Part shown: positions 33,934-57,246 of the stretch, one piece after another | Position numbering within the stretch: position 1 is the first letter of the stretch | Layout of the letters: each line of letters opens with the position of its first letter | Source of the DNA: Orobanche coerulescens | Lineage: Eukaryota > Streptophyta > Magnoliopsida > Lamiales > Orobanchaceae | Assembly: GCA_033398695.1 (NCBI GenBank) | Contig: CM065817.1 | Coordinates: forward strand, 32,746,231-32,810,230 | Direction: 5' to 3' | Length of the DNA: 64,000 nt | Notes under the pieces: generated by a model | Database searches by the model: none | The model's input: the letters and a program-made list of their open reading frames with translations, nothing else | What the model was told of the DNA's origin: nothing | Position numbers and translations under genes: made by a program

Positions 33934-35146
33934 TGTTGATATAAAATCGGATATTTGCGCCGTTTTGTGCGGAAGCGAAAATAAATTGCGGAAAATAAAT
34001 CACACAAGGATTTATAGAGGTTCGGCTATTAACGAAGCCTACGTCCTCTCTCGATGTATCTTTTTCTTAGGATTAAGATCAAAACCTCTACGCCTCTCTT
34101 CTATCGGTCGAGGGATTACCGTTACAAGCTCGTCTTCTATCGGTCCGAGTAAAACCGTTTTTCCTTTTCTATTGGATAAGGAATCAACCACTCTAGCTTT
34201 CTATTGGTACTAGATAAACCTCACTGAGATATCGATTGCGATTCTAACAATGCCGGATACTTGATCCTAATAACACCGAATCCAATCGTATCTTTTCTTT
34301 TACCTCTCGTGTATAATGTTGAATGTATAAACACTCAAACTAACAATATAAGCTCAACATTACAACAACAATGTACGTATATGATTCTCAGATGTATGAC
34401 TTGTTTGCTTGAAGTTGTTGTATTCAAACAATACCATAGGCATGGTATTTATAGGCACTTTCCACAAACTAGCCGTTGCTGGCTGTTTTGACTTGCTAGC
34501 GTGCGCTAACCTTCTTTATTAGCGTGCGCTGACTCATTAGCGTGCCTGTAGCGTGCGCTAGACTGTTCCCAGTTTCAGTCCAGTAGCTTCATTTCTTCTT
34601 TAGCGTACGTTATGCCTTCTGCCTTACGTACGTAACCTTCTTGTATTAGCGTGCGTTAATAACACATTGTAGCGTGCGCTAATACAATATATCTGTTGCA
34701 TGGATTGTCAAAGTATCCGTTTGATATGCTGACTTTGACCTGCTTTTCCCAACGTTCTGATTGACTTGATTCAAACTGCTTAGCGTGCGCTATTCCTTCT
34801 TTGTAGCGTGCGCTAATGCTGATTTCATTGCATACGTCATTATGTGTTTGAATTCCTTCACAACGGTAACAAGGCTCGATAGCGTGCGTTAATGATAATG
34901 TGTAGCGTGCGCTATCTCATCAGCTGACTTCACTTCAGCTTACTTCGAACTTGGCTGATATGCAGATGACTTCCCGTTAGCGTGCGCTAACATATGTGAC
35001 TTAGCGTGCGCTAATTCAGTCCAGATTGCAACTTTTTGCGTCTTCGTCTGCTTCGTCGTTTTGCTTCGCCTCGATGTTGTTTTGTTGTTTAGCAACTTTA
35101 ATCATCAAAACACAAATTAAATATGTGTGGAATAAATATTCCAACA
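33934..35146 (-). repeat. 3' LTR of element D (left in window)
   Basis: It runs TGTTGATATA ... ATTCCAACA on the plus strand. It carries the TAGCGTGCGCTA array at 34497-35017, with TATAAATA on the minus strand at 34453-34446 directly downstream. The short open frames in it are not genes. Confidence 0.92.
34497..35017. promoter_or_regulatory. TAGCGTGCGCTA palindrome array in D 3' LTR
   Basis: About 14 copies of TTAGCGTGCGCTAA and close variants (TAGCGTACGTTA, TTACGTACGTAA) lie in 520 bp. A second motif, TCCAGTAGCT, occurs at about 34569. The array is upstream of the TATA box in transcription sense. Repeated palindromes in Sirevirus LTR control regions are, as I recall, described in maize. This motif sequence is one I do not recognise. 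Confidence 0.7.
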
Positions 35147-35577
35147 ATCTCCCCCTTTTTGATGATTACAAAACAACTCTTGAATTGGATAACCTGTAAA
35201 AATAATATATGTATATTTCTACGAATCAAAGTTTTCGGCTTTGATCGTTTCGTTAGTTTCTCCAATCCTCTTTTCTTTTCGACATCTCCTTTATTTTCCA
35301 ACTACGTCGTTTTTCATTTTTCAATTTTTCAACTCCCCCTATTTGTATGCTTTATTTTTCTTTTCGACTTCTTCGATTTTTCTCATTTTTATCTCAATTC
35401 TTCTCCTTCTCATTTTTATCTCAATTCATGTTTTTCTCCCCCTTTTTGTCTTCATCAAAAAGTAAAAAATATAGAGTATATCGAAATATAAATATGCATG
35501 ATACAAATGAATATGCATTAATAAGCAAAAATACTCCCCCTAAAAGTATTATCTCCCCCTTTTTAAAATATCAATTG
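35147..35577 (-). other. Repeated polypurine tracts of element D
   Basis: On the minus strand, AAAAAGGGGGAGAT directly precedes the LTR. Further copies of AGGGGGAG or GGGGGAG-like tracts occur near 35331, 35438, 35532 and 35551. Several polypurine tracts upstream of the 3' LTR are a known Sirevirus hallmark. The rest of the stretch is pyrimidine-rich on the plus strand and non-coding. Confidence 0.75.
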
Positions 35578-37122
35578 TTAAAATTTATTTTTGGGGATCC
35601 AACCTATAGTTGGTTTTTCTTTTGAAATGTAGACGATATTTGAAATGTTTGTTCCTTTAGGAACCCAAATCTTTTTAATTTTTATCGTTCGTCTTGGGCT
35701 TTTGCAATTTGAAATGTGATGCCCGATTTTCAAACATTTTTCACATCGGGGTATTCTAAAATTGACGGATTCGTTTTTCGAACGTGGTTTGAATCTTAAC
35801 CCCTCTTTATTTAGAGTATATTTTTGAACACATAACATTTGTTCAAATTTATCGTTGCCGCACGAGAATTTCTTTGTCAAAATTTTTAGTTCATCTTGAA
35901 CTTTTAAAAGATCATTCTTTAAAATATTCTCGTTTTCAATGCATTTCGAATGATCAACTTCGACAAATTTCCCTTTTTCAAGTATTTTGGAATTTTCGAT
36001 TTACAAAGTTTTATATTTAGACTTGAGGGATTTAATTTCATTTAAAGCATTTTGATAGTCCGTATGTAATAACTCGAATGCTTCAAAGAGTTGATCATAG
36101 GAGTTACTTACTTGGCTTTCGACGTCGCTATCGTCGAATGAACTCCGGGCCATAAGCGCGAGATTATTTTGTTCAAGAAAATCTTCATCGGGATCTTCGT
36201 CGCTCCATGTTGCGATTAAAACTTCCTTTTGCTTTACTCGACAGTTTTTGGCGAAGTAGCCTTGTTTACCACATAATCGACAAGTGTTGTCGGGTTTCTT
36301 CGATTCCCCCGCTTGAATGTGCTTCTTCCTCCAGTTTAATAAGTGTTGGAACTTATTAATATTTTTGGCATAATATGCCATTTCTTCGTCGCTTTCGTCC
36401 ACCGGGGTTTCTTCTTTCTTCTTCGACATTTTAGCCTTGAAGGCTATCGACCTCTCCTTCGGTTTCGGTTTGGCATTCCGAGATTTTAGGACAATCTCGT
36501 AGTTGATAATAGAACCAACGAGAGCACTAAAATCGAGAGTATTTAAATCTTTGGATTCCATTATTGCCGTAACCGTACCGTCCCATTCTCGAGGTAGTGA
36601 TCGGAGAATTTTCTTTACTTTCTCACTACTCGAAAGTGGTTTTCCGAAACATGCTAATCCATTGGTGATAACCGAAAATCGGTCAAGCATAATCGAGATG
36701 GATTCGTCGTCCTTCATTTGGAATAATTCATAATCGTGAAGGAGCATGTTTATCTTCGTCTCCTTGACTTGAGACGTACCTTCGTGTGTTACCTCAAGCA
36801 TTTTCCAGATTTCTTTGGCACTATCACACGATGATATTCGGTTGTCTTCTTCCGGATTTAAAGCACAGTATAATAATTGCATCGCTTTGCAATTATAATG
36901 GTCGTTTTTCCAATCCGCATCGTCATACTCTTCAAAGGTTTTGAGGGTTCCGTTTGAGTTCGTCGGGATTTTGGGACCAAGACAAATCACCTTCCAAAGT
37001 TCAATGTCGTAAGCTCGAATGAATATCGACATATTCTTCTTCCATGTCATGAAGTTTGCGCCATCAAAAAATGGTGGTCGGTTGAGAGCAAGGCCTTCGA
37101 CGGGAGCCATTTGAAACGCCAT
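35578..37122 (-). pseudogene. gag: Gag of element D, one in-frame stop
   Basis: It starts MAFQMAPVEGLALNRPPFFD at 37122. A UBN2-type gag core (for example FMTWKKNMSIF, ALNPEEDNRISSCDSAKEIW, RSLPREWDGTV) covers about residues 10-220. Two zinc knuckles follow: CRLCGKQGYFAKNC at about 36265-36310, whose His is replaced by Tyr, and CEKCLKIGHHISNC near 35735. A Lys/Glu-rich coiled coil lies between them. A single TAA at 36001-36003 splits an otherwise continuous frame of about 514 codons. The frame ends at 35578 shortly after KKIWVPKGTN, which in full-length relatives leads directly into protease. Pol is therefore cleanly missing. A gag-only element would depend on relatives for reverse transcription and integration. 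Confidence 0.88.
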
Positions 37123-37163
37123 TGGATCTTTTCTCCTCGGATGTTAAGCCGCGTATTGGAGTA

Positions 37164-37178
37164 CCTCTCCGATACCAA
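37164..37178 (-). other. Primer-binding site of element D
   Basis: On the minus strand TTGGTATCGGAGAGG starts two bases after the LTR end. It resembles the initiator-Met tRNA complement used by the other Copia elements here. Confidence 0.8.
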
Positions 37179-37179
37179 T

Positions 37180-38393
37180 TGTTGATATAAAATCAGATAT
37201 TTGCGCCGTTTTGTGCGGAAGCGAAAATAAATTGCGGAAAATAAATCACACAAGGATTTATAGAAGTTCGGCTATTAACGAAGCCTACGTCCTCTCTCGA
37301 TGTATCTTTTTCTTAGGATTAAGATCAAAACCTCTACGCCTCTCTTCTATCGGTCGAGGGATTACCGTTACAAGCTCGTCTTCTATCGGTCCGAGTAAAA
37401 CCGTTTTTCCTTTTCTATTGGATAAGGAATCAACCACTCTAGCTTTCTATTGGTACTAGATAAACCTCACTGAGATATCGATTGCGATTCTAACAATGCC
37501 GGATACTTGATCCTAATAACACCGAATCCAATCGTATCTTTTCTTTTATCTCTCGTGTATAATGTTGAATGTATAAACACTCAAACTAACAATATAAGCT
37601 CAATATTACAACAACAATGTACGTATATGATTCTCAGATGTATGACTTGTTTGCTTGAAGTTGTTGTATTCAAACAATACCATAGGAATGGTATTTATAG
37701 GCATTTTCCACAAACTAGCCGTTGCTGGCTGTTTTGACTTGCTAGCGTGCGCTAGCCTTCTTTATTAGCGTGCGCTAACTCATTAGCGTGCCTGTAGCGT
37801 GCGCTAGACTGTTCCCAGTTTCAGTCCAGTAGCTTCGTTTCTTCTTTAGCGTACGTTATGCCTTCTGCCTTACGTACGTAACCTTCTTGTATTAGCGTGC
37901 GTTAATAACACATTGTAGCGTGCGCTAATACAATATATCCGTTGCATGGATTGTCAAAGTATCCGTTTGATATGCTGACTTTGACCTGCTTTTCCCAACG
38001 TTCTGATTGACTTGATTCAAACTGCTTAGCGTGCGCTATTCCTTCTTTGTAGCGTGCGCTAATGCTGATTTCATTACATACGTCATTCTGTGTTTGAATT
38101 CCTTCACAACAGTAACAAGGCTCGATAGCGTGCGTTAATGATAATGTGTAGCGTGCGCTATCTCATCAGCTGACTTCACTTCAGCTTACTTCGAACTTGG
38201 CTGATATGCAGATGACTTCCCGTTAGCGTGCGCTAACATATGTGACTTGGCGTGCGCTAATTCAGTCCAGATTGCAACTTTTTGCGTCTTCGTCTGCTTC
38301 GTCGTTTTGCTTCGCCTCGATGTTGTTTTGTTGTTTAGCAACTTTAATCATCAAAACACAAATTAAATAATGTGTGGAATAAATATTCCAACA
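37180..38393 (-). repeat. 5' LTR of element D (right in window), with palindrome array and TATA box
   Basis: It is nearly identical to the left LTR. On the minus strand the order is palindrome array (38262-37743, about 14 TAGCGTGCGCTA-type copies), then TATAAATA at 37699-37692, then R/U5 and the primer site. This is the copy that would drive transcription. Confidence 0.92.
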
Positions 38394-40158: not shown

Positions 40159-40160
40159 AG

Positions 40161-40174: not shown

Positions 40175-40281
40175 TAGGTTCATTGGACCACCGCATCTGG
40201 TTACTGAATCTGATCAAGACAAAGTATATCGACCAGCAGACTTATTTTCATTTCAAAAAAATAGTTTACACTATTTCAAAA

Positions 40282-41460: not shown

Positions 41461-42372
41461 CTTCTTCTGAGTATTTTGAGAAACTATTTCTTTGTGTCTG
41501 TTAAACCTTCTTAGTTTTCTGAAATTATTTAGTTTAACGTACCTCTTAGAATAGTAGCACGGACGGTGAAGCTTGGTATCCCCTCCACTAGTTTGGAGCA
41601 GTAGATCTCTATCTTGGTCATGTAATAAGGTTTTCTTTGAAATCGGACCGGTGTCTCCGTTATTATACCAATAGGGATGCCAGTTTATCTTTCTACTGGT
41701 ATTGACTTGACCACAAGATATATAAACCTTCTTCTAATTTTTCACTTTAGGGCCTTGACCAGAAGTTTATCCCTTCTGGTACCCTTGACCAGTAGTAGGG
41801 GTATTGTTTTTATTGAGATCACAATTCTTTTTGGTAAAACCCTTGAAGGGTCCTTTAGATTGATGAGTTTTCCCTTGTTTAAAGTTGACAGGTTTTGAAA
41901 GAATATTTTGGTTATTTTTATAGTCATATCCTATGTATGCTTTGCCTTTTGGTATGACTTGTCCCTCAGTAATAGAGTTCAAAGATTGTGTGGATTTTGT
42001 GAATGTTTTAATTTGCTCCTTGAGTTTTATTTCATTTGATCTCAATTCAGTATTCTCAGTTTTTAAATTTGCATTTTGTTTTGTTACTGATCCAATCTGA
42101 CTAATAAGGATATTTTCCCTATTTTCCCGATTGTCATTTTCTTTTGATAAAATTTCCTTTTCAGATTCAAGCTGAGAATATATGTCTTGGATTTTTTCAA
42201 ATTCCTCTTTTAAAAATTTTACCATAATATATGTGCTTTCTGTATTAACATAATGAGAATAACTTGAATATGATACCTCCTCTCCAGCCATTTCCCTTAA
42301 ATTACGATTATCAAAGGAAACTGGAAGAAGCTCGAGCCCCATTTCATGGCTTAGAGCTAAGCTGGAATCCAA
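41461..42372 (-). pseudogene. Inverted gag C-terminal segment of copy B
   Basis: The minus-strand reading is open for about 200 codons from 42372 (DSSLALSHEMGLELLP) through a coiled coil rich in Glu/Lys/Asn to NNTPTTGQGYQKG. It has both ends at the same positions as in copy A. It is cleaner than A's version, where the frame is broken at the first coil. It encodes the gag tail of the same element in reverse, not an independent antisense protein. Confidence 0.8.
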
Positions 42373-45300
42373 GAAAAAGTAACAAAAGAGGACCCACTAT
42401 GATGTGGGTCCCCAAATCCTTATTGAATTGATTTATAGGACCAGGTCACCTCTAGAAGGAAGAAAGGGGTCAAGTGATACCTGGACAGTGAATGCTCCAG
42501 ACATATGACCTGGAACAAAGAGTCACTTACCAATTTCATAAATCTAAATGGGAGTCATGTGACCTTTGGAGGTGACAAAATTGGTATGATCACAGGTATA
42601 AAAGATCTGATCAAAGGAAAACTGATGATTAAGGATGTTTATTTTGTGGAAGACTTACATTACAACCTGCTAAGCACTAGCTAACTCTGTTATAAGGGAT
42701 ATGATGTAATGTTCAAAGCGCAGGAGTGTGTGGTGTACAAATCAGGAGACACCATACCAATCTTCAAGGCCTATAAAGATAAGAACCTTTATACAATAAA
42801 CTGGGAATTCAGCTGTCCAGGAGACATGTCTACTGGCCAAGAATGAACAATGCTGGCTATGGCACAAGTGGATGAGCCATATGAATTTCAAGTCAATCAT
42901 CAATCTAGCCAAAGGAGGTCTTGTTGAAGGGTTGCCATTAATGATTTTTGACAGGATAAGCCTCTGTAGAGCTTGTCAGAAAGGAAAACAAGTCAAAGCG
43001 TCCTTCAAAACAAAGCCTAAATATTCAACAACCAGACCTCTGGATCTACTGCATATGGATATGTTTGGTCCTCTGGTTCCTTTCAGCATAAGTGGGAAAA
43101 AGTATACTCTTGTGATAGTAGATGACTATACAAGATATACTTGGACAATTTCCTTGAGCAGGAAGAATGAAGTACTGAAAAAGATGCCAGATCACCTGAG
43201 GTTATTGCAAAACCAGAAGAGTCTGACCCTCCTGAATATAAGTTCAGACAGAGGCACTGAATTTCTCAACCAGGTGACCATAGATTACTGCAACTCTAAT
43301 GGTGTCAGTCACCAATTGTTAGCACCCAGAACACCTCAACAAAATGGGGTAGCTGAAAGAAGAAATAGAACACTCAAAGAAGCTGGAAAAACAATGATTT
43401 CAGAAGCTAAGCTACCTCAAAGGTTTTGGGCAGAAGCTGTTAACACAGCTTGCTATGTTCAGAACAGGTGTATGATCAACAAATTCTTCAACAAGACACC
43501 TTATGAACTATGGAATGGGATAAAACCAAATATTTCACATCTCATAGTGTTTAGGGGAAAGTGCTACATTCACAACAATGGAAAGAATCATCTGAAGACA
43601 TTTGATCAGAAGGCAGATGAAGGCATACTGATGGGTTACTCTTCTACCAGCAAGGCATACATAATTCTAAATAAGATAACAATGGTAGTTGAAAAATGAG
43701 TGCATGTAAAATTTGATGAAGTGGATGATACACCCCCTCTGGATGATGAAGTACCAGCAGAACCCATTCCAGAACTAGTAGATGAACAATTTGCAAGAAT
43801 AGGTATCAATATGGATTAATCAGAAGATGAAGAAGCTGAAAAAATCAAGTCTGCTGTACTCAACCAGTAGAGGTCCCTTCTGCCAACAGAGACATACCAG
43901 ATGGGACTGATCCAGAAGATTTTATCAGAAGACCAGGAGGCACTACTGGTCTTCAACTAGATTTGATATGGCTAAGAGATCACCTACCTGAATTAGTGAT
44001 TGGAGATCCAACAGCTGGAGTCAGAACCAGATCCAAGTCCTCAACAGAAAACATGTTTGAATGCTACATTTCTCAAGTTGAGCTAAAGAATGTTACTGAG
44101 GCATTTGAAGAAGCAGACTGGATCCAGGCTATGCAAAAGGAACTAAATCAGTTTGAAAGGAATGCAGTTTAGGATTTGGTTCCTAAACCAGATCATGTCA
44201 AACCCATTGGCACTAAATGGGTATTCGAGAACAAACTAAATGAAGAAGGTCTTATTATCAAGAACAAAGCCAGGTTAGTGGAACAGGGGTACAATCAATC
44301 AGAAGGCATAAATTTTGATGAGACATTTGCACCAGTTGCCAAATTGGAGGCCATTAGAATATTCCTGGCCTATGCTGCTTACAAGAACTTCACAGTCTAC
44401 CAGATGGATGTGAAGAGTGTATTTTTACAAGGAAATTTAGCAGAAGAGGTCTATGTCCTACAGCCCTCTAGAGTTAAAGTGAGAGGACAAGAAGATATGA
44501 TGTATAAGATGAAAAAGGATCTTATGGGTTGAACCAAGCTCCCAGATCTTGGTATGATACACTCTCCCAGTTCCTAGTTGAAAAGGGATTCACCAAGGGA
44601 GCAGTAGATAAGACATTATTCAGAATTGAACAAGAAGGCCATATCCTTTTAGTTCAAGTTTATGTTGATGATTTTATATTTGAGTCCACTAACCAATTAT
44701 TATGTGAAAGTTCTCTAAGCTTATGCAGGGGAAATTTGAAATGAGCATGATGGGAGAACTCAACTTTTTCTTAGGACTCCAAATAAAGCAACTGCCTATT
44801 AGTATCTTCATCAATCAGTCTAAGTACACCAATGAGCTGGTCAAGAAATTTGGGACAGAAAGAAGGAATTCAGTGAAGATTCCCATGAACACAACAAGCT
44901 CAGCTAATTTGGATGAACAAGGCAAACCAGTAGACCAGAAGACCTACAGAGGCATTATTGCGCCTCTACTGTACCTCGCTGCCAATAGACCTGATATTGC
45001 TTTCTCAGTAGGAGTATGTGCAAGGTTCTAGACCAATTCAAAGGAGAGTCACCTGATCCTTGCAAAGAAGATCCTTAGATACCTAAATGGGACTCAGAAC
45101 ACAGGCCTCTGGTATCCTAAGGAAGGAGGATTTGATCTTGTAGTCTATTCAGACTCAGATTTTGGTGGATGCAAAGTAGACTTGAATAGTACATTAGGGA
45201 CATGCTAACTACTAGGGGGAAGGTTTGTCTCCTGGTTCAGCAAGAAGCAGCAGTCTACTGCTACATCTACTGCAGAAGCAGAATACCTTGTAGCTGGGAG

Positions 45301-45600
45301 TTGCTGCACACAACTCATCTGGATACAACATCTAAGGGATTATGAAATAATTGCCAAGGAGAACAAGATCAGATGTGATAATACAAGCGCCATTGCCATT
45401 GCACAAAATCCAGTACAACATTACAGGACAAAGCACATAGCAATCAGATATCATTTTATCAGAGATCATGTGGAACATAAGAATGTGGCTATTGAGTATG
45501 TCAACACAGAGATTCAGCTTGCAGTTATATTCACAAAACCCCTATGTGAATCACGGTTCAATATGTTGCGAAACGAGTTGAGAATTATCGAATTTCTGTG
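42373..45600 (+). pseudogene. pol: Copia pol of copy B: protease, integrase, RT, RNase H
   Basis: The domains are as in copy A: protease with LDSECSRHMT (near 42490, DSG to DSE), integrase from 42872 (MSHMNFKSI, CRAC, DMFGP, SSDRGTEF, QQNGVAERR), RT with [13 protein letters not shown] and YVDDF (near 44660), and an uninterrupted RNase H ([29 protein letters not shown]). Integrase is open for 275 codons, longer than in A because a TAT in B (43021) is TAG in A. Nonsense codons after VVEK, before DLVPKP, after CARF and in GTC*LLG are shared with A. A frameshift follows DLMG at 44530. It is not functional. Confidence 0.88.
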
Positions 45601-46501
45601 ACCAGAAGAGGTGCAAAAAGCAGAAGAGAGGTCTTCTGGTTGGTGACCAGTAAAGTCCTATCAACTCTCCTGGTTGACCTCCAGTAGACACCTACGAAGA
45701 CCAGAAGAGGCGAACCTTGGTCAGCAGAGAGAATATTAATTAAATCTGAAACGGCACAACGATCAACTAAAAGACAGACATATTATTTCATTAACACCGC
45801 CATTGATTGCTAACTCAACGGATATATTTTTTTTTGATAACTAGGTGATCCCAGCTTAGCCGGACTAATCCTAGTCCCTCAATGAACCCACTCCTAACCC
45901 ATTGAGAGAAGTAAATCGCGAGTCGCTCGAGCAATTCCAGGGTTCCCAATGCCTTTTTCTGTACACTTCTGCGCACAAGGAGAAGCCCTTAACTGATTAA
46001 CAGCGCCTCAGGTTCCCAGCACAGTTCTCGGGAGAACAGCCACTGATTGGTCAGTACCTCCGGGTTCCCAGCAAGGAAATACTCCCACACTGCCGCTTGA
46101 CGCGAGATTAAACATTGATTAGCGGTTGCTTGAGCTATCCCCGGGGAGCTAGAGGATCATAAAGAGAAAAACTTCCTCTTTCACCTCCTTTGGTGGGGTT
46201 AGAACCCAAGACCTCTCCAAAGGAGTGTCTTGGAGTAGGCGTCCTACCACTGGACCACCCACCCTTCCCCAACTCACTGGATATATTCATACAATTATAA
46301 ATAGAGAGATAAAATGACCAGATAAATTCTTTACCTTTTCTCTCTATCTATCTATATTCTGCAATTAATCTCTCTCTTTCTCTTTCTAATTTCTTACTGC
46401 ATAATCACGATCGATATTTTATTGCAATTTTTCTGAATCTATTTGAACTCAAATCTACACTTAAATCTACATTTTCTATCGATTTTTTAGTAAATTCTAA
46501 A
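45601..46501 (+). promoter_or_regulatory. Putative internal promoter and leader of B third ORF, split by a SINE
   Basis: Directly after pol come ACCAGAAGAG (45601), AGCAGAAGAG, CTTCTGGT, GACCAGTA, CCAGTAGAC (45681) and ACCAGAAGAG (45700), the motifs of this element's LTR. TATAAATA at 46297-46304 is followed by a CT-rich leader (46335-46390) and the ATG at 46502. Without the SINE the last motif would lie about 110 bp upstream of the TATA box. This is inferred from sequence only. Confidence 0.5.
45828..46270 (-). mobile_element. tRNA-derived SINE in copy B
   Basis: It has the same head, A box, B box, A tail and imperfect target duplications (45812-45827 and 46271-46286) as in copy A, with scattered differences around 46010-46080. 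The shared position shows the SINE was present before A and B separated. Confidence 0.88.
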
Positions 46502-47328
46502 ATGGCACCAAAAGTTCAGAAGATTGCCGATCAACTATGGATGGGCAACATAGTTGATCTAGAAGGGTTAGTGGATGCGTGTGAAGATGCAGACAAAGCA
46601 AAAACCGTGGTTGTCCATTTGAACAATACTGGGCTATCAAAATATCTCACAAGGTCGAGGCTAACAAGGAAGTACATCAATTCTTTCTATCTGCTTGATC
46701 TTATATGAGGACCGATGTTGCTAAAATAGTAAATGGAAATGAATATGTTATAATCAAACAAGTATTGAAGGAGCACCTGGAACTTCCATCAGTTGGATAT
46801 TGGAAAATAAGAGGTGGTCAATTTGTGTTTGAAGACAAAGAGGCAAAATGGATCTGGGATAAGATTAGTAGACTCCTAGGCCAGAAGGTAAATCTATCCA
46901 CACACAAGAGGGAACTCAAGAATGAGTTCTAGAAATTGCTTGACATAGTCTTCAAGCAAACTGAGTTCAAAACAGGTAGTTTTGACTACCTTACTGGTTA
47001 CAAGGCTCGTCTGATGTATGTAATTCTGAAAGGGTTCCAAGTTGATTGGGCCCAAGTTATACTAGGTCATCTTCACGATTATGTGGAGAAGAGAAAAGTA
47101 GTAAATGGTGCACTCACTCAGAAGGCACCATTTGGTCTTCATGTAGGATATATACTTGAGAAACTTTGGGTGGTTTTCATCAATCCTCTCCCCCTACATC
47201 CATCCAAGTATATGTTTAGAGTCAAGGTCATACGACAAAGTGACTTGAGAAAAAGGAATAGGGTCAGCTGGTGGTTAAGGAAAAGAATAGAAAATGGGTG
47301 TTGAATCCTACTCCTCTGGCCACAGCAG
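46502..47328 (+). pseudogene. Third ORF of copy B, first part
   Basis: The ATG at 46502 begins MAPKVQKIADQLWMGN. The reading passes through three frames (46502-46705, 46705-46932, 46936-47304). Features are VVVHLNNTGLSKYL, then a stretch ending KLLDIVFKQ...GSFDYLTGYKARLM, and KAPFGLHVGYILEKLW. The sequence is not one I can assign firmly. Its position after pol, and the layout of its last part, resemble the third ORF of element C (putative plant transposon protein domain), so I infer a diverged homologue. Element C is inserted at 47329 and the ORF resumes at 57252. Stops and shifts make it non-functional. Confidence 0.6.
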
Positions 47329-48901
47329 TGAAGAGATAAATATACCACTAGAAGGGGTGTTGAATAGTGGTAATGCGGAATAACAAAATTTCTTGCGAAT
47401 AAATGAAAAGTAGTGCGGAAAATAAAGACTCAAAGATTTATAGAGGTTCGGCAACTTGCCTATGTCCTCTCTCCGACTTTCTTTTTCTATTGGCTCAAGA
47501 ACAACCACAATCTTGACTCATCTTCGATCGGTCCGAGTTCACAACCATTACAACCGCTTGTCTTCTATCGGTCCAAGCTCAACCTCTCTGAATACCAACT
47601 TTTTGTTTATCTAGTGTTCTATAGGAACTAGATAATCCTTACTGTACGAATATGGGAGTATAATCCTAACAATGCTGGATCAAAGATCCTAATAACATCG
47701 GATTAGTGACTCTTGATTCATTTCTCTTATGCTCAAGTGTAAGTGATGCAACACTTACAATCAAATGAAGGAATACAAAGTATAATAAATATTACAAGGT
47801 ATATCACTCTTTGTATTTCTCTTCTCACAACTTAAAATGCAATAGATGATATGAAACTGAGCTCAAGTATGCTTTGATTGCTTGTATGCTTGTATGCTTG
47901 TATGCTTGAAGTTGTGTGTAAATGATACCCAAGTCCTATGGGTATTTATAGGTGAGAGCCATTCTTCAAATACTGAAAATCATATTATTAGCGTGCGCTA
48001 ATAATGTCTTCTAGCGTGCGCTGTAGATTCTGACTTGGCTTTCCTGAACGGTCACAAAACTGTTCCAACGGTAAAATTGTATGGCTAGCATGCGCTAGTC
48101 ATGAATTCGTAGCGTGCGTTATTGGTTGGCCAACAGGTCTTCAATCTTGACTTTGAAATTGTTGGTTTGTCTCCCCAACGTCTCTTTATCCAATGGCTAA
48201 ATTTGAACTTAGCGTGCGCTAGCAAGCATGCATAGCGTGCGCTAGCAACCATGCATAGCATGCGCTAGTATTAATTAATTCCAGCTTTTCCAGATTTCAC
48301 GGATCTTCATTGACTCTTGCTTTCCAATGGTAGAAATTCCAACGGTAAGTTGCTGACTGATTTAGCGTGCGCTAATAATATACCGTAGCGTGCGCTAAAT
48401 ATTTTCTCCAGTTACGTACGTAACCCTGTGTAGCGTACGTAAAGCCCTTCTTACTTTGAGTCCAGTAGCTACTGGACTACTGACCATATTTGGTAGCGTG
48501 CGCAAGTAATGTAGAATGACATGCGCTAAGTCCTTGTATTAGCGTACGTAAATAATTGTTCGTAGCGTGCGCAAGACCGTTTCCATTTTCTTTCCAAACC
48601 TCACTGTCCTATGACTGAATGATGCGATAGCGTGCGTTAATATTGTTGTATAGCGTGTGCTAACTGTAGTAATTTAGCGTGCGCAAATGTTGAAAGACTT
48701 GCGTGCGCTATCCATCAGGTAACTTCACTGGACTGCAGCTGACTGACTAGGCGGAATATGCATTTCTCGATAGCGTGCGCTACTCTGGTATAGATAGCGT
48801 GCGCTAACACCATTTTGCTCCTTCAATGTAACAGCGTGCTGAGATTGATTTAATTAAATGTTTTGAATGAAATTATCATCAAAATCCTTTTGGAGTCAAC
48901 A
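47329..48901 (-). repeat. 3' LTR of element C (left in window)
   Basis: It is 1573 bp, ending GGAGTCAACA. It contains an extra 23-bp unit (TAGCAAC..CATGCATAGCATGCGC region near 48240-48262) absent from the right LTR. The palindrome array runs from 47990 to 48812, and TATAAATA on the minus strand lies at about 47950-47943. Confidence 0.92.
47990..48812. promoter_or_regulatory. TAGCGTGCGCTA palindrome array in C LTR
   Basis: I count about 21 copies of TAGCGTGCGCTA or near variants (GTACGTAC, GCATGCGC, GCGTGCGCAA) in about 820 bp. The palindrome AGTCCAGTAGCTACTGGACT lies at about 48460-48480. The motif is the one found in element D. Confidence 0.75.
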
Positions 48902-49250
48902 ATCTCCCCCTTTTTGATGATGTCAAAACATTTAATCTATACCTGCAAAAACACTTTAAATGATTCGAATCAAGGTAACTTGTTCGATATATTAGTGCGT
49001 TTCGGTTTTTGGAGTATTCTCCCCCTTTTTGACATAAACAAAAAGGAACTCCCCCTGAATTGTTGCCTTCTTAACAGATATCATGAACCAAAACGAAATC
49101 AAATAAACAATAATACAGCAAATACCAAATGAAGCGAAATGCAAATTCCATTAAAACAAAGTTCAATGCAATACATAAAATTTCAAGACATGAAACATAA
49201 AGACCATTCGAATGTTAAGCTTCTACAATCAAACATCAAGATCCTAGATT
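48902..49250 (-). other. 3' untranslated region of C with repeated polypurine tracts
   Basis: AAAAAGGGGGAGAT on the minus strand abuts the LTR. Further tracts lie at about 49019 (AAAAAAGGGGGAGA) and 49052 (AGGGGGAG). No gene is visible in the rest. Confidence 0.75.
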
Positions 49251-50516
49251 CTAAGGTGCTTGATTGGAAGAGGAGGATGGGAATGGGAACGACGGATGTG
49301 TATATCGAATGAAATCGGATATCAGCCCACGAACTTCCCCGACTTCCGAACGAAGAGATCCGACTTCCGTGCGAAGAGACCGAACATCCTCTCGAATTTC
49401 CAGCTGAGAGGTCTCGATGCTCCTCATCCGAGCGCAAAGATCACTTTCTTCTTCCTCCGTGACGGCGTCTCGCATCGGTCGCTTCCCTTTCGTCTTTGGA
49501 TGGCGAACAAATTCTCTGGTTTGTATCTCCCTAAGCGTATGGGGTCCTCGGTGCGTCACACGTTCGACCGGTGTTGGCATTCACGTCCTCTTCGGTACTT
49601 GATCATCTTCTCGGAGGCACGAAAACAACACCCAACCTCTATTGTATGTTTCAACATAATGCATAGCTTTGAGGGTTAGGTCGCTTATTTCGTGTCCTCG
49701 AGACACCGGAACGGGTGCTTCACTAGACAAGTCGACGTGAAAATGCCGGAAGATCACCGCGAGGATAGAGCCAAAAGGAAGTCCTGATTTCCGAGTCCTC
49801 GACAAGTAATTCTTTGATCGAAATGAATCCCCTTTCGCCTTCATCCAGTTTAGCACAATACCGGTAAACTCCACCCTGTCATCCTTCAACACATGATACA
49901 CCACATTTTTGTCAACGCCTACTAGCTTGTGTTGGGTATTAACTTTTGGTATCAAACACTTGGTTAGGGCAGCCAACAACAATCGAATGTGAATACCGAA
50001 ATCATTATTCTCAAAAACGTCATCCGTAACCTCGATGACCGTTTTCGAGCACAAAAGGTCAGCGACATCTCTCTCGGATACATGAGACTCTTCAGTAATA
50101 GATTTCCCAACGCAATCACAACCATCCTTCGATAAGCCAAATAACTCGTGAAGTATTTCCAAGGAAATCTTCACCACAGTTCCTTTCACCAGGCTACCAA
50201 GCACTAATCCACCATTACCGTCACCATCACCCAAGTGCAAATTAGCATAAAACTCGCGGACACAGGAAGGGTAAATAATTTCCTTGCATTCAACAAACCG
50301 AGCTATCCCTAATGCTTCAAAGAACTCACGAATACTAACCTTAACCCGTTGAAGACTGCTGAAATTGAAGAAGTAGCAGTCGGTAAGATTCTCCTGAGGA
50401 AGGATATCGGAGAATACCTTCGATGCGGCGTAGGAAACAAACCGGGTCGCATCATATTCAGTATCGCGAGGGCGTTTGTAGGTTTTCCCCATGGTTTTGC
50501 GTCCCTTGCTAGACAT
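49251..50516 (-). pseudogene. Third ORF of element C, putative plant transposon protein domain, one stop
   Basis: The ATG at 50516 starts MSSKGRKTMGKTYKRPRD, a basic N-terminus. Residues of about 30-270 (for example IYPSCVREFYANL, VLNWMKAKG, GLPFGSILAVIFRHF) match what I know as the putative plant transposon protein domain (PF20167). This domain is found in ORFs downstream of pol in Sirevirus-like elements. Its function is unknown. A single TGA at 49581-49583 interrupts the frame, which otherwise continues to 49251 through a basic segment and a heptad-like coil (ETSQLEIREDVRSLRTEVGS). About 420 codons in all. The stop sits after ACG, as a CGA-to-TGA transition would give. It has its own candidate promoter just upstream. 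Confidence 0.8.
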
Positions 50517-50609
50517 ACTGAAGGAATTTGAAGTTTTGAGGGAGAAATCGGAAGTTTGAAGGTTCGGATTTTGCGGCTAGGGTTTTGCTAGAAGAGGGTT
50601 TCTTGCTTT

Positions 50610-50865
50610 TGCGTACGTTAGGAAAGGGTGAAAGTGTTTCTAGGTCGTACGGAGTTTATATAGTCAACTGGGTTTTTAATTAGCGTATGCTAGAAACGTA
50701 AGGTTAGCGTACGTTAGGTAGGAACAGGAAGCTTACTGGACTGTCCAGTAGCTGATTTGAAATACAAAAGGTTTTAATTAGCGTACGCAAGGCAGAGAGG
50801 ATTAGCGTACGCTATCGAAAGTGGTATTTAGCGCGCGTTAAGAAAGTGAAGCTAGCGCGCGCTAG
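50610..50865 (-). promoter_or_regulatory. Putative internal promoter for the third ORF of C
   Basis: Between pol (ends 50914) and the third ORF (starts 50516) lie six copies of the LTR palindrome: CTAGCGCGCGCTAG (50851), TTAGCGCGCGTTAA (50828), TTAGCGTACGCTA (50802), TTAGCGTACGCAA (50778), TTAGCGTACGTTAGG (50704) and TTAGCGTATGCTAG (50680). Next comes a minus-strand TATATAAA (50662-50655), 18 bases further on. A leader of about 110-140 bases contains AAACCCTAGC (about 50586-50577) before the ATG. One more motif copy lies in the leader (50610). TACTGGACTGTCCAGTAGCT at about 50736 is a second motif shared with the LTR. Confidence 0.65.
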
Positions 50866-50913
50866 TGAATGAAACGAGTCAAGGATATTGATTTCTTGAG
50901 CAGAAAACTTATT

Positions 50914-53900
50914 TCAAAAATTGTCTATATGTCCCATACCAAGTTGTAAACGAATAGAATTAAATGATTCTTTGGGAAGAGGTTTTGTAAAAATATCAGC
51001 GAGTTGGTCCTTCGTCCCGACAAAAGTTAAGCAAATATCTTTCTTCTGAACATGATCGCGTAGAAAATGATGTCTAATGTCTATATGCTTAGTTCTACTA
51101 TGCAACACATGATTTTTACTCAGATTAATTGCACTGGTATTATCACATAGAATAGGGGTATTTTCAAAATATATGCCGTAGTCGCGGAGTTGATTTTTAA
51201 TCCATAACACGTGAGCACAGGCGATCCTTGCAGCGAGATATTCGGCTTCAGCTGTAGACAATGCTACACTGGTTTGCTTTTTACTTCCCCAAGATATTAA
51301 ACATGATCCAATAAAATGACAAGTACCACTAGTACTCTTTTTGTCGATTTTACATCCGCCGAAATCGGCGTCACTATATGCAATTAAATTAAAATCCAAG
51401 CAAGAAGGATACCATAGACCTAGTCCGATAGTCCCTTTCAAGTAGCGAAAAATGCATTTGCAAGCAGTTAAATGTGATTCCTTGGGATTAGCTTGGAATC
51501 GAGCACATAAACATGTAGCAAAAATTATGTCTGGCCTAGATGCAGTCAAATATAACAAAGATCCGATCATACCTCGATATAATTTTTGATCTACGGATTT
51601 GTCATTTTTATCTTTTTCAAGCTTCAATGATAAAGACATTGGTGTAGATATCACCTTGCTACTTTCCATTTTGAATTTCTTGAGGAGGTCGTTTGAGTAC
51701 TTCATTTGATGGATAAAGATTCCATCTTCGCATTGCTTGATTTGAAGCCCGAGGAAGAACGTTAATTCTCCCATCATACTCATCTCGAACTCTCCTTTCA
51801 TAAGATTAGAGAAATCTTGGCACAAAGATTCATTAGTAGATCCAAATACAATGTCATCAACGTAGATTTGGCAAACAAGTATATCATCATTCAATATTTT
51901 AACAAACAAGGTATTATCGAATTTGCCTCTTTTATAGTCATTTGCAATTAAAAATTGACTTAAACGATCATACCATGCTCGGGGTGCTTGCTTCAACCAG
52001 TAGAGTGCCTTGTTGAGCTTGTAGACATGATCCGGAAATTGATGGTCTTCAAAACCGGGAGGTTGCTTGACGTAGACTTCTTCTTGAATGTAGTCATTCA
52101 AGAATGCACTTTTCACATCCATTTGAAATAGTTTGATCTTTTTATGGGCGGCAAATGCACATAACAAGCGGATGGCTTCGAGTCGAGCCACGGGAGCAAA
52201 ACTTTCTTCATAATCAAGACCTTCCTCTTGATTATACCCTTGAGCGACCAAACGAGATTTATTTCGAATTGGATAACCATCTTCGTCACTCTTAATTTTA
52301 TGCACCCATTTAGTTCCGATAATTGTTTTATCTTTAGGGGCGGGAACTAAATTCCATACATTATTGTGCATGAATTGCACAAGCTCCTCTTACATTGCCA
52401 TCACCAAACTTTCATCATCGAGAGCTTCAGATATAATCTTGGGAACTATTTTGGATACAAAAGCACAATGAGCCATAAATTCGGTGGTTCTCCTTCGGGT
52501 TTGAACACCGTCTTCAATGTTTCCAATCACGAGATCCTTTGGATGGTCTTTGATGTACCTCCAATCTTTCGGTAAATCAACGATTGTGTTCGTTTCGATT
52601 TCCGAAATTTTCTTCACTTCGGGTGAGGGATCCGGGAAAGTACATGCATCATCAAAATATTCTACCTTTCTCGGGGGTGAGATCATATCATTGAATTTAA
52701 CATGTATGGACTCTTCAACTTTATTCGTTCTAATATTACAAACGCGATATGCTTTGCCATTTGTACAATAACCAAGAAATATTCCGGAGTCGGATTTAGC
52801 ATCAAACTTGCCCAAGTTATCCTTACCATTGTTTAAAATAAATACGTTGCAACCAAAAGGATGAAAATAAGCTATATTGGGCTTTTTGCCCTTCCATAAT
52901 TCATACGGGGTTTTAAGATGAGTTCTACGAACATGAACTCGGTTAATCACATAGCATGCCGTAAAGATTTCTTCGGCCCAAAAGTATCGTGGAAGAGAGT
53001 ATTCATTAAGCATAGTCCTCGACATTTCTTCCAAAAATCGGTTTTTCCTTTCAACAACTTCATTTTGTTGAGGCGTTCTAGGAGCCGAAAAGTTATGATT
53101 AATTCCGTATTTATCACATAAGAGTTCAAACGGAGTGCAATCAAATTCACCTCCGTGATCGGTGCGAATAGAAATTATGGAGAGATTTTTCTCATTCGAT
53201 ACCAAACGACACCATTTAGAAAACTCGGAAAATGCATCATCCTTATGTGCTAAAAATCTAACCCAAGTAAATCGAGAGAAATCATCAACAATAACCAAAG
53301 TGTAAAGTTTGCCATTTAAACTAACATGTCTAGATGGTCCAATCAAATCCATATGCACAAGTTCAAGAACACGACTAGTAGAAACCTCGAATTTTGGTTT
53401 AAAAGATTCTTGAGTGTGTTTCCCTTTTATGCATGATTCACACAAATGCTTTCTATCAAACTTGAGTTTGGGCAATCCACGAACGAGGTCGTGTCTAGAT
53501 AGAATAGAAATGATAGGTGAAGAAGTATGCCCCAATTTTCGATGCCATACGTATGCATTATCATCCAAAGTAATAAGATATTTTTCATTGAATGAACTTT
53601 TATCATTAAGGTCAACAATATAGATGTTTCCACATCTCAAACCAATGAATGCAATTTTATTATTTCTAAATTCCGTGCAATGCGTTTGCTCAAAGAGAAT
53701 TTTAAAACCTTCATCGCAAAGTTGCGAAATGCTAAGAAGATTATGATGCAAACCTTCAACAAACAATACTTTGTTGATAGAGGGAGAAGGTTCCTTACCG
53801 ACTTTGCCGATGCCTTTGATTTTTCCCTTTTGATTATCCCCAAAGGTCACATGTCCTTGTTCTTGATATTCGAGGTCTTCAAATAAGTCCTCGGACCCGC

Positions 53901-53957
53901 ACATGTACCTTGAGTATCCGCTATCAATGTACCACTTGCTTTTCCTTGGTGCCGGTA
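50914..53957 (-). pseudogene. pol: Pol of element C: protease, integrase, RT, RNase H, one stop
   Basis: The protease active site WYIDSGYSRYM lies at about 53933-53901. Integrase has HRKLGHTS and CESC zinc ligands, DLIGP, IRTDHGGEF and QQNEVVERKNR, so all three acidic residues are present. The frame continues to a single TAA (52390-52392) just before the RT. This is probably CAA to TAA, since homologues have Gln there. RT (52380-) has [20 protein letters not shown] and the active site YVDDIVFGS. RNase H has [20 protein letters not shown] and [17 protein letters not shown], then ADIFTKPL near the end. The frame is otherwise intact for about 1,010 codons. A frame change of about 53945 separates it from the gag frame. 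Confidence 0.92.
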
Positions 53958-55637
53958 CCTACAAAAATAGAATTTCTCAGTTGTTTCGGTACCCAAGCCC
54001 GTTTGGGTCCTCCAAAGTTAACTATGCTTATAGCATTTGGAACAATTGTCCCTTTAGGAACCCATATTTGTTTAACTTTGATGGTTCTCAACTTTGAACG
54101 AACATTAACATCATGAACTCATTTGGAAGGATCTTTTGAGTTCTCGGTTTTGGTTTTCTTTATTTTGTCAAGGTTGATAAGGGATTGTTCCCGTTTAAAA
54201 GGATCGAAACCAAGACCGTATTTTAGCAATGGGGATTTTTGAATAGATAGAAGCCTTTCGAATTTCTCGTTTCCGAGAGTAAATTTGTTCAAAATATATT
54301 TTAGCTCCTTTTGAGTTTTCGTCAATTCGATTTTCAAAACATTTTCCTTTTCAAGGCATAAGGTATGGTCGATCTCAATAGTTTTGCCTTTGTTTTGAAG
54401 AGAGGAATTTTTGAGTTCTAGAGATTTTATTTTTCTCTTTAAAGATATGTTTAATTTAACCATCTCGTCATATTTCGTGTTCAAGGATTCAAACGCACTT
54501 AATAACTCATCATCATGATGAACTTCTTGTGAATCACAAAAATCAAAAGAGTCATATTCGTCATCATTGAGTTTAGAACTTACCTCGATATTGCTTTCGG
54601 AGTCGAGTGCCATGAATGCGAGATTCGCGTCTAGAGATCTTTCAATCTCCTCCTCGTCATCACTCCAAGAAGCAATTAGGACCTCCTTCTTTTTGAAATT
54701 TTCCATTTGAGGCTTTGAAGAGGATCCTCGGCATTCTTTGGCATAGTGACCGGCTTGACCACATTTCCGACAATTATTGTCGAACTTCTTTATAGGAGTA
54801 TAGCCACTCTTCTTTTGCTCCGGTTTGCCATCCCGACCAAGAAAACTTCGCCTCTTTTGAATTAGGCTTTTATACCTTCTAAAGTTCTTGGCATAGAGAG
54901 CAAGTTCCTCGTCATCTTCATCTTCGGGAACATCTTCCTCAACATCGCTATCAACATTGAATGCGACTACTCTTTCCCGAGGCTTTGGTTTGGTGCCTCT
55001 AGACTTGAGAACGATCTCATAATTGATGAGTGACCCGATGAGGGCACTAAACTCAAGCTTGTTGAGATCTTTGGATTCCATAATCGCGGTTACCGTAGCA
55101 TCCCATTCTCGTGGCAACGAGCGAAGAATTTTCTTTTCTTTATCGCTGCTCGATATAGGTTTTCCGAAAGACGCAAGACCATTGGTTATAGCCAAAAATC
55201 GATCCAACATGTTTGTGATCGTTTCCTCGTCTTTCATGGAGAAAAGTTCATAGTCATGAAGTAGCATGTTGATTTTGGTTTTCTTGACTTGGGTGGTTCC
55301 CTCATGAGTGACTTCGAGAATTTCCCAAATTTCCTTTGCGCTTTCGTAGGATGATATCCTATTGAGTTCTTCGGGATTAAGAGCGCAATAGAGAAGTTGA
55401 GTAGCTCGTGAGTTGACGTGTGTTCCTCCAATCCTCGTCATTGAATTCGTCAATCTTTTTCAATAATCCATCCTCTTTCTTAGAAAGCTTCGGACCAAGA
55501 GCAATAACTTTCCAAATTTCAATATCGTAGGCTTGAACGAAGATAGCCATTTTCTTTTTCCATGTCATGAAATTGGAACCGTCGAATAAGGGAGGACGGT
55601 TGAGAGCATTTCCTTCGATTTGGCCAAGCAGAGCCAT
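53958..55637 (-). pseudogene. gag: Gag of element C, frameshift and stop
   Basis: It starts MALLGQIEGNALNRPPLFDG at 55637. A frameshift at about 55435 breaks the core between DEDWRN and ATQLLYCALNPEEL. The remainder to 54119 is open: a UBN2-like core, an acidic DDEEL region, one intact zinc knuckle CRKCGQAGHYAKEC (about 54780-54735), then a long coiled coil with FESLNTKYDEMVKLNISL. A TGA at 54119-54121 interrupts it, and the same frame continues with KQIWVPKGT to about 53958, where the protease frame takes over. The N-terminus is clearly homologous to D's gag (NRPPFFDG / NRPPLFDG, GPK). Confidence 0.88.
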
Positions 55638-55682
55638 TTGCGGATCTTTTTCCCTTAGGTGGTTAAACCTTTAAAAAGAGAC

Positions 55683-55697
55683 CCGCTCTGATACCAA
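55683..55697 (-). other. Primer-binding site of element C
   Basis: On the minus strand TTGGTATCAGAGCGG follows the 5' LTR after one base. It is a full match to the standard initiator-Met tRNA complement. Confidence 0.9.
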
Positions 55698-55698
55698 C

Positions 55699-57246
55699 TG
55701 AAGAGATAAATATACCACTAGAAGGGGGGGTTGAATAGTGGTAATGCGGAATAACAAAATTTCTTGCGAATAAATGAAAAGTAGTGCGGAAAATAAAGAC
55801 TCAAAGATTTATAGAGGTTCGGCAACTTGCCTACGTCCTCTCTCCGACTTTCTTTTTCTATTGGCTCAAGAACAACCACAATCTTTACTCGTCTTCGATC
55901 GGTCCGAGTTCACAACCGTTACAACCGTTTGTCTTCTATCGGTCCAAGCTCAACCTCTCTCAATACAAACTTTTTGTTTATCTAGTGTTCTATAGGAACT
56001 AGATAATCCTTACTGTACAAATATGGGAGTATAATCCTAACAATGTTGGATCAAAGATTCTAATAACACCAGATTAGTGACTCTTGATTCATTTCTCTTA
56101 CGTACAAGTGTAAGTGATGCAACACTTACAATCAAATGAAGGAATACAAAGTATAATAAATATTACAAGGTATATCACTCTTTGTATTTCTCTTCTCACA
56201 ACTTAAAATGCAATAGAAGATATGAAACTGAGCTCAAGTATGCTTTGATTGCTTGTATGCTTGTATGCTTGTATGCTTTAAGTTGTGTGTAAATGATACC
56301 CAAGTCCTATGGGTATTTATAGGTGAGAGCCATTCTTCAAATATTGAAAATCGTATTATTAGCGTGCGCTAATAATGTCTTCTAGCATGCGCTGTCGATT
56401 CTGACTTGGCTTTCCTGAACGGTCACAAAACTGTTCCAACGGTAAAATTGTATGGCTAGCGTGCGCTAGTCATGAATTCGTAGCGTGCGTTATCGGTTGG
56501 TCAACAGGTCTTCAATCTTGACTTTGAAAGTGTTGGTTTGTCTCCCCAACATCTCTTTATCCAACGGCTAAATTTGAACTTAGCGTGCGCTAGCAAGCAT
56601 GCATAGCGTGCGCTAGTATTAATTAATTCCAACTTTTCTAGATTTCACGGATCTTCATTGACTCTTGATTTCTAATGGTAGAAATTCCAACGGTAAGCTT
56701 GTTGACTGATTTAGCGTGCGCTAATAATATATCGTAGCGTGCGCTAAATATTTTCTCCAGTTACGTACGTAACCCTGTATAGCGTACGTAAATCCCTTCT
56801 TACTTTGAGTCCAGTAGCTACTGGACTACTGACCATATTTGGTAGCGTGCGCAAGTAATGTAGAATGACGTGCGCTAAGTCCTTGTATTAGCGTATGTAA
56901 ATAATTGTTCGTAGCGTGCGCAAGACCGTTTCCATTTTCTTTCCAAACCTCGCTGTCCTCTGACTGAATGATGCGATAGCGTGCGTTAATATTGTTGTAT
57001 AGCGTGCACTAACTGTAGTAATTTAGCATGCGCAAATGTTGAAAGACTTGCGTGCGCTATCCATCAGGTAACTTCTTCAATTTGCTGGTGACTAATTTGA
57101 ATATGCATTCCTCGATAGCGTGCGCTACTCTGGTATAGATAGCGTGCGCTAACACCATTTTGCTCCTTCAATGTAAAAGGGTGCTGAGATTGATTTAATT
57201 AAATGTTTTGAATGAAATTATCATCAAAATCCTTTTGGAGTCAACA
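55699..57246 (-). repeat. 5' LTR of element C (right in window), array plus TATA box
   Basis: It is 1548 bp. On the minus strand, about 20 TAGCGTGCGCTA-type palindromes (57140-56357) are followed by TATAAATA at 56321-56314. The last palindrome and the TATA box are about 36 bp apart. This LTR lacks one 23-bp unit that the other LTR has. Confidence 0.92.

Follow-up and report, generated by a model that had tools for sequence, protein, structure and literature searches.

The window is a stretch of 64,000 nucleotides from the genome of the plant Orobanche coerulescens (GCA_033398695.1, contig CM065817.1, positions 32,746,231 to 32,810,230). On its minus strand lies element C, a Sirevirus-like Ty1/copia retrotransposon whose parts are found in the sense order 5′ LTR, gag, INT, RT/RNaseH, spacer, an extra open reading frame (ORF3), and 3′ LTR (Table 1). 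The order of its Pfam domains, Retrotran_gag_2/zf-CCHC, rve, and RVT_2, is the copia order, with integrase before the reverse transcriptase. The two LTRs are about 1.55 kb long and show 58 differences over 1547 aligned sites. The element is flanked by AGCAG and AGCAA, which are identical at 4 of 5 bases, and which we read as an imperfect target duplication. By eye, there are multiple polypurine tracts before the 3′ LTR (G-rich, on the minus strand, near 48906, 49021, and 49051). The presence of an extra ORF between pol and the 3′ LTR is a trait of the SIRE lineage, where it is frequent but not universal (74% of elements, according to the passages of PMC6317226 on these ORFs).

The window includes several other elements. 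Element B is a gag-only element, also Sirevirus-like, with a gag that is 53% identical in amino acids to that of element C. Another copia element is present in two copies that are 98% identical (15265-23648 and 38880-46407). Behind the second of these, a broken extra ORF (46502-47304) matches Transposase_32 weakly (E-value 0.067) and has no palindrome array, and element C starts about 25 bp past it. Element D has a weakly similar extra ORF, and no palindrome array was found with it in the window.

Table 1. Features of elements C and B in the window (all on the minus strand; positions on the window).
Feature	Position	Strand	Basis or remark
Element C, Sirevirus-like Ty1/copia	47329..57246	-	LTR repeats, Pfam
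Element C 5′ LTR	55699-57246	-	LTR repeats
5′ LTR palindrome array, 23/24-bp pairs	56360..57151	-	motif scan
LTR form of second palindrome, GTCCAGTAGCTACTGGAC	56809..56826, also 48460-48477	-	exact in 14/16 aligned LTRs
5′ LTR TATAAATA	56314..56321	-	motif scan
RT/RNaseH end of pol	50914..52380	-	RVT_2 7.5e-75
pol-ORF3 spacer, proposed internal promoter and leader	50517..50913	-	397 nt
Palindrome 1 (distal)	50853..50864	-	motif scan; kept in divergent relatives
Palindrome 2 (distal)	50829..50840	-	motif scan; kept in divergent relatives
Palindrome 3 (distal)	50803..50814	-	motif scan; kept in divergent relatives
Palindrome 4 (distal)	50779..50790	-	motif scan; kept in divergent relatives
Second palindrome, 17 bp, TACTGGACAGTCCAGTA	50734..50750	-	exact in 23/30 close copies
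Palindrome 5 (TATA-proximal pair)	50705..50716	-	motif scan; close-copy alignment
Palindrome 6 (TATA-proximal pair)	50681..50692	-	motif scan; close-copy alignment
TATATAAA box	50655..50662	-	motif scan; close copies; ORF3-reached spacers
Palindrome 7, 2 mismatches, leader, just 3′ of expected start site	50609..50620	-	motif scan; divergent alignment
Telobox-like AAACCCTAG, leader	50577..50585	-	exact in 27/30 close copies
ORF3, Transposase_32 (PF20167), 311 aa in window copy	49581..50516	-	E 5.1e-13, 49.7 bits, cut-off 45
In-frame ORF3 continuation behind stop, 109 aa	49251..49580	-	coiled-coil-like by weak sub-threshold matches
3′ LTR palindrome array	47989..48806	-	motif scan
3′ LTR TATAAATA	47943..47950	-	motif scan
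Element C 3′ LTR	47329-48901	-	LTR repeats
Element B, gag-only, palindrome pairs and TATAAATA in LTRs, no internal array	33934..38393	-	

Motifs in the spacer between pol and ORF3

The original prediction was that the spacer of element C carries six palindromes of the type TAGCGYRCGCTA, followed 18 bp later by TATATAAA, with the ATG of ORF3 about 140 bp further and with AAACCCTAG in the leader. All of this is found. The six palindromes are on the minus strand with at most one mismatch each (two of them match the predicted motif perfectly), TATATAAA is at 50662-50655, 18 bp past the sixth palindrome, and the ATG at 50516 follows after another 138 nt. The leader sequence at 50585-50577 we take to be a telobox, or a telobox-like motif. 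Teloboxes have a role in plant 5′ regions.

The palindromes are strongly enriched with respect to shuffled sequence. Counting palindromes with at most one mismatch, 2,000 dinucleotide-shuffled versions of the spacer have a mean of 0.0085, and not one has as many as six. In the whole window there are 69 matches with at most two mismatches, where 2.1 are expected. On the other hand, TATAWAW alone is weak evidence, being present in about 20% of shuffled spacers. The spacer is also free of ATGs, and we dropped that observation as evidence for a promoter: 25% of the shuffles are ATG-free as well, which is not significant, and ATGs upstream of ORF3 are present in 4 of 16 leaders of the family alignment described below. 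An asymmetry between the left and right arms of the palindromes (pooled p 0.019, with none of three sets significant alone) was likewise left unused.

Palindrome grammar in the LTRs

The LTRs of element C had been said to have the same order as the spacer, and they do, with the palindrome arrays followed by TATAAATA 38 bp past the last palindrome. The distance between array and TATA box is 18 bp in the spacer, and 38 and 43 bp in the LTRs of elements C and B. Palindromes tend to come in pairs with gaps of 23 or 24 bp. These gaps are 3 of 5 in the spacer (equalled by random placement in 5 of 4,000 simulations), 9 of 17 in the element C LTR, and 5 of 11 in the element B LTR (0 of 4,000 simulations in both cases).

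A second motif, also predicted to be common to both places, is indeed a perfect palindrome in the spacer and in the LTR, but with the half-sites in opposite order: TACTGGAC-A-GTCCAGTA in the spacer and GTCCAGTA-GC-TACTGGAC in the LTR. There are 9 occurrences of TACTGGAC in the window vs. 1.2 expected, and 8 of the 9 are in the LTRs or the spacer of element C.

The arms of the main palindromes are alike in LTRs and spacers, and the centers differ. The central dinucleotide is CA in 266 of 288 LTR sites vs. 4 of 210 spacer sites; the spacer sites have mostly TA (148 of 210) or CG (53 of 210). Because of this difference, the LTR and spacer arrays need not bind one factor equally. The difference also bears on the origin of the spacer array, which could be a neutral copy of an LTR fragment or the product of a tandem duplication, as the two motifs common to LTR and spacer might suggest; yet BLAST finds no match between the palindrome-masked spacer and the LTRs of elements C or B at an E-value of 0.1, and the motif positions are conserved in relatives in which the four-fold sites of ORF3 have diverged to 28-71% identity. 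Given the lack of similarity once masked and the different centers, we reject a recent LTR copy, and we find a neutral origin the least credible of the explanations considered.

Conservation among close copies and divergent families

How much of this is conserved? In a family-wide alignment of the spacers the motifs are conserved, and they do not occur at chance frequency. For the close copies, we used the best 30 of 40 that were scored, out of 1,970 candidates in the source genome (3.65 Gb). In these 30 copies, the non-CpG columns of the palindromes have a mean of 0.25 minority rows, vs. 1.12 in the flanks (p 1.7e-4), and none of 74 slid masks gives a non-CpG value as low as that of the true palindrome mask. 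For the CpG columns, the means are 1.63 in the palindromes and 3.54 elsewhere (p 0.026). TATATAAA is present in 28 of the 30 copies, and TATATATA in the other two. Taken individually, neither the TATA box nor the second palindrome stands out in these close copies: among windows of equal length, 8.7% and 12.9%, respectively, are conserved just as well. The LTR arrays were compared over 16 rows: the non-CpG palindrome columns are also conserved (p 4e-4), and the difference in the CpG columns is not significant (p 0.07). Between the two LTRs of element C itself, CpG changes are observed at 5 of 38 sites in palindromes vs. 11 of 36 outside, which are too few to use.

We also collected spacers from more distant families. 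A search of the genome for the proximal palindrome pair followed by TATATA reports 885 + 1,364 matches, in which a repeated TATATA counts one place more than once; the reversed-pattern control reports 0. From the matches listed for two patterns, 15 divergent spacers (3 + 12), all in contig C1, were hand-picked for diversity, leaving out places with an LTR-like look. All 15 sit between the C-terminus of a copia pol and a homolog of ORF3, with amino acid identities to element C of 68-96% for pol (in the best stretches) and 48-86% for ORF3. Together with that of the window, the 16 spacers are 364-422 nt long (pol stop included) and 62-94% identical, with a mean of 75%.

Because the search pattern fixes the proximal pair and TATATA, only the distal, leader, and second palindromes and the telobox are independent of the way in which the spacers were found. 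These independent motifs are deeply conserved. In a test that takes columns as the units, on rows that are related by descent, the four distal palindromes have 0.75 minority rows of 16 vs. 3.89 in the background (p 1.9e-11), the leader palindrome has 0.50 (p 3e-5), and the second palindrome 1.65 (p 0.004). AACCCTA is present at the aligned place of the telobox in all 16 rows. Six relatives were compared with the window copy, with identities of 0.90-0.98 at the motif positions (among them the ascertained pair and TATA), 0.62-0.82 over the remaining spacer, and 0.28-0.71 for the four-fold sites of ORF3. A conserved initiator is not seen in the 16 rows: at 34-41 nt from the start of the TATA box, the rows have different Y-R dinucleotides, and two of them have none.

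In order to reduce the ascertainment by the palindrome pattern, we also selected spacers that were reached through ORF3. All eight have 6-7 palindromes, TATATA 17-19 bp behind one of them, and AACCCTA; these eight are one ORF3 family, 8 of 40 matches, and the query itself (L090) is a pattern hit.

One of the divergent relatives, L079, is close to element C in pol and spacer. It has 94% amino acid identity in pol and 82% identity in the spacer outside the motifs, together with 66% in ORF3 and 34% at its four-fold sites. From these values, it is likely that the ORF3 cassette has been exchanged behind a conserved putative promoter.

ORF3

ORF3 had been described as carrying a putative plant transposon protein domain, and PF20167 is indeed found above its curated cut-off. 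Among four relatives that were scanned, three are above the cut-off, and L079, with 44.5 bits, is just below. An in-frame stop ends ORF3 after 311 codons in the window copy. Frames of 415-427 aa are present in 6 of the 30 close copies, so the ORF3 of the family is longer than that of the window copy. ORF3 is under constraint in the 30 copies (pN/pS 0.38), and dN/dS is 0.04-0.14 in unsaturated pairs, which indicates purifying selection. These pairs are from the window copy and the 8 of 15 relatives with a single uninterrupted match, four of which hold one stop that was skipped; saturated pairs were left out.

PF20167 is the only family reported for ORF3 with E-values up to 10, with neither DUF1985 nor any other DNA-binding family, and a PDB sequence search reports 0 hits. 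An AlphaFold2 prediction performed without an alignment has a pLDDT of 32, which is uninformative. The most hydrophobic stretch of 19 residues in the window copy has a Kyte-Doolittle mean of 1.6, at residue 104. A search of viral contigs found 0 relatives of ORF3, and one viral contig has the motif pair. Genome-wide, PF20167 has 16,053 first-look candidates, of which 150 were scored; the 30 loci examined are mostly related to each other, and no RT match of the element C type was found with them.

The palindrome code outside Sireviruses

Element B has palindrome pairs and the TATA box in its LTRs. Among the 40 best genome matches to its LTR, there are 11 pairs located 3.15-3.28 kb apart, which implies that the short form of element B has itself multiplied.

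Palindrome pairs are very abundant in this genome. There are 477,553 exact pairs when linkers of 0-30 bp are allowed, while the reversed-pattern control gives 0; as the pair pattern is its own reverse complement, the forward and reverse searches count the same pairs. The start-to-start distance is 23 or 24 bp in 86 of the first 100 exact pairs listed. The palindrome pair with TATAWAWA has 25,366 + 26,796 matches (0 in the reversed control), with many different flanks among the matches listed.

From the pair + TATAWAWA matches we selected five LTR pairs, all in contig C1. Three of the five interiors have Ty3/gypsy proteins, and the other two gave no verdict. The interior of L092 has SH3_Tf2-1 (6.6e-28) and Integrase_H2C2 (5.3e-18), and a chromodomain match that is below the cut-off (21.7 vs. 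25.1 bits). L093 has SH3_Tf2-1 (1.4e-26) and L094 has RVT_1 (2.4e-7); both are homologous to L092, with 49% and 43% amino acid identity in the best stretches. The LTR start TGTAATAYCCG, or a close variant, is found beside a purine-rich tract in four of the five, and is cut off in the fifth by the limits of the stretch examined. The 2.1-kb 5′ pieces of the five elements have 15, 13, 6, 10, and 17 palindromes with at most two mismatches, and gaps of 23/24 bp are frequent. In L098 (1615-1785) and L101 (1695-1763) there is a second palindrome array about 700 bp 3′ of the TATA, in a stretch that is repeated at the 3′ end, so that it apparently still belongs to the LTR.

When the palindromes are masked, these five LTRs have only two short matches to the C or B LTRs or to the spacer at an E-value of 0.1: one of 17 nt between L098 and the spacer, and one of 20 nt between L100 and the C LTR, on the second palindrome (E-value 0.049 for each). 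The same palindrome code is thus present in LTRs of two superfamilies, and these LTRs have no other clear similarity. Including the gag-only element and the LTRs with gypsy proteins, the code is common to more elements than was originally proposed. ORF3 is absent from the 2.2-kb interior stretches of the five other code-bearing elements, the three with gypsy proteins among them.

Comparison with known systems

The original reading held up in that array, TATA box, and telobox are conserved before ORF3, and in that arms, spacing, and order are like those of the LTR. Where it does not hold up is in knowing of no description of such a duplicated promoter module: palindromes before both the LTR TATA box and ENV are already in Bousios et al. 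2010 (PMC2829016). The passages of that paper on these motifs (RM boxes) report palindromic repeats that precede the LTR TATA box in 13 Sireviruses, and that are found before ENV as well in all 9 Sireviruses having both ENV and the motif, with 77 of the 79 linker copies preceding ENV. The authors offer them in support of an internal promoter, a hypothesis that they attribute to Peterson-Burch and Voytas 2002, while no promoter was conclusively identified. So the principle of palindromes before the LTR TATA and before the extra gene is already published in PMC2829016, and the arrays described here are like the RM boxes in being high-copy dyad-symmetric palindromes in those two places. The core is different, GCG-NN-CGC here instead of the CGG-CCG reported there for all but Tnd-1, and the rarer second motif here is TGGAC-GTCCA. 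Beyond what those passages of PMC2829016 describe, we find a conserved TATA and telobox, and the pairs at 23/24 bp. And unlike the RM boxes, which are called Sirevirus-specific there (by comparison with other Ty1/copia elements only), the module here is also in the LTRs of three elements with Ty3/gypsy pol domains.

Among the papers listed in a literature search outside subscription, we found no report of the TAGCGNNCGCTA code in plant retrotransposons, nor of its sharing between copia and gypsy LTRs. We regard as new the TATA/telobox layout, the 23/24-bp pair grammar, the use by a gag-only element, and the module in LTRs of elements with gypsy proteins. The strongest of the new results is a genome-wide palindrome-pair code, putatively a promoter code, common to copia and gypsy elements.

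Palindrome clusters are also known in the LTRs of maize Sireviruses, for which the source study is reportedly Bousios et al. 2016. As in the account given in PMC10760457 and PMC5311732, the clusters here are in the LTR cis-region; the maize motif is a different one, and the pertinent passages discuss it in terms of hairpins and small-RNA hotspots. For the extra ORFs, the relevant part of Neumann et al. 2019 (PMC6317226) describes the eORF-3′F/env-like ORFs of SIRE elements, present in 74% of them and in 19 dissimilar groups. ORF3 is likewise an extra ORF downstream of pol, but in contrast to those dissimilar groups, a Transposase_32 ORF recurs here across several families of one genome. Finally, dense same-orientation motif arrays in the non-coding parts of a transposon with an extra gene are a likeness to the VANC/VANDAL system (PMC5735166, passages on motif binding). 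VANDAL is however a DNA transposon, VANC has DUF1985, the motif is not palindromic, and its binding has been demonstrated, whereas for the sites here it is a prediction.

How is ORF3 expressed?

The anatomy of the spacer is promoter-like, with an array, a TATA box, a start region, a leader with a telobox, and a start codon. We find it rather probable that the spacer is an internal promoter of ORF3, and that the factor reading its array also drives the LTR. In the mechanism that we propose, a dimeric DNA-binding factor would recognize the TAGCG-NN-CGCTA half-site pairs, adjacent palindromes 23-24 bp apart would bind it cooperatively, and the array would then activate the TATA box, which lies 17-19 bp further on. 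From a start some 30 nt past the TATA, near 50629, a short mRNA for ORF3 would be transcribed, with the telobox in its leader. As the LTRs carry the same arms, the same pair spacing, and the same order of array and TATA, the same factor would drive the genomic RNA, and the genomic RNA and the ORF3 mRNA may be switched together.

Which factor could this be? One candidate is ORF3 itself, as a VANC-like self-encoded activator or anti-silencing factor under its own control. The arrays adjoin the gene that would encode such a binder, ORF3 is under purifying selection, and element B, which is without ORF3, keeps the sites as a dependent element would. According to the passages of PMC5735166 on VANC21, that protein binds short motifs that are dense, and of one orientation, in the non-coding stretches of its own element. 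Against it, ORF3 would have to serve in trans for the five code-bearing elements that lack it, its sequence has no DUF1985 or other DNA-binding family, and a single-sequence fold with pLDDT 32 does not help either way. That the same code is found in gypsy-protein LTRs weakens the idea further, and we consider it doubtful. The presence of the module in a gag-only element and in gypsy-protein LTRs argues rather for a factor acting in trans on many families, and this factor is probably host-encoded, which is more likely than its being ORF3.

The alternatives to an internal promoter concern how ORF3 is expressed, and what the arrays do. Spliced RNA is predicted for the env-like genes of BAGY2 and Athila. 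If ORF3 were translated from a spliced genomic RNA, the palindromes of the spacer would serve another purpose. In the window copy there is an acceptor-like TTCCTTCAG directly before the ATG of ORF3, there is a donor-like GAG|GTAAGT at 54583, within the gag of element C, and in 29 of the 30 close copies the ATG is still preceded by CAG; splicing of other plant env-like genes is also mentioned in PMC2829016, in its passages on ENV. But the acceptor is not kept among families: in the divergent alignment, the 16 rows do not agree in the six bases that precede ORF3, whereas palindromes, TATA, and telobox stay. We therefore reject TTCCTTCAG as a splice acceptor, and regard splicing as unlikely.

We are equally skeptical about the arrays acting as RNA or DNA hairpins (sources of siRNAs, or decoys) instead of promoter sites. 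Certainly, the spacer array is predicted to fold well as RNA (z -5.1 vs. mononucleotide shuffles), and passages of PMC10760457 and PMC5311732 describe small RNAs concentrating on the palindrome-rich LTR regions of maize Sireviruses. However, the whole LTR array of element C folds little better than shuffles (z -1.5), the CA center of most LTR copies would leave mismatches when two copies pair, and a hairpin role does not explain the constant place of the arrays upstream of TATA boxes.

Stop-codon read-through from pol, reported for SIRE1 in the account of PMC2829016, or internal ribosome entry is very improbable: each of the 16 rows has a spacer (364-422 nt) in which every frame is closed by stops, so that read-through cannot explain ORF3, and we reject it. 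The leader is predicted to be unstructured (z -0.05).

With closed frames excluding read-through, and an acceptor that is not kept among families, a separate mRNA for ORF3 is favored, as the internal promoter would produce.

Perspective

The route by which plant retrotransposons express their extra (env-like) ORFs has been a question for some time. An internal promoter was hypothesized in 2002 and supported in 2010, and the passages of PMC2829016 on the subject identify none. The conserved layout of array, TATA, and telobox allows for exact start-site and mutation tests.

We lean, with some reserve, toward a more general reading, namely that one factor, probably from the host, reads two copies of TAGCGNNCGCTA, 23-24 bp apart and followed by a TATA, in the Ty1/copia Sireviruses, their gag-only relatives, and the Ty3/gypsy chromoviruses of a single plant, where exact pairs number about half a million, and that Sireviruses use this code twice, for the genomic RNA and for the ORF3 mRNA. 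With one cis-code in two unrelated superfamilies, many LTR promoters of this genome may be under the control of a single host factor. Finding such a factor would uncover the on/off switch that they have in common, and possibly a silencing target that they share. If true, two retrotransposon superfamilies would be using this code as one shared transcriptional currency.
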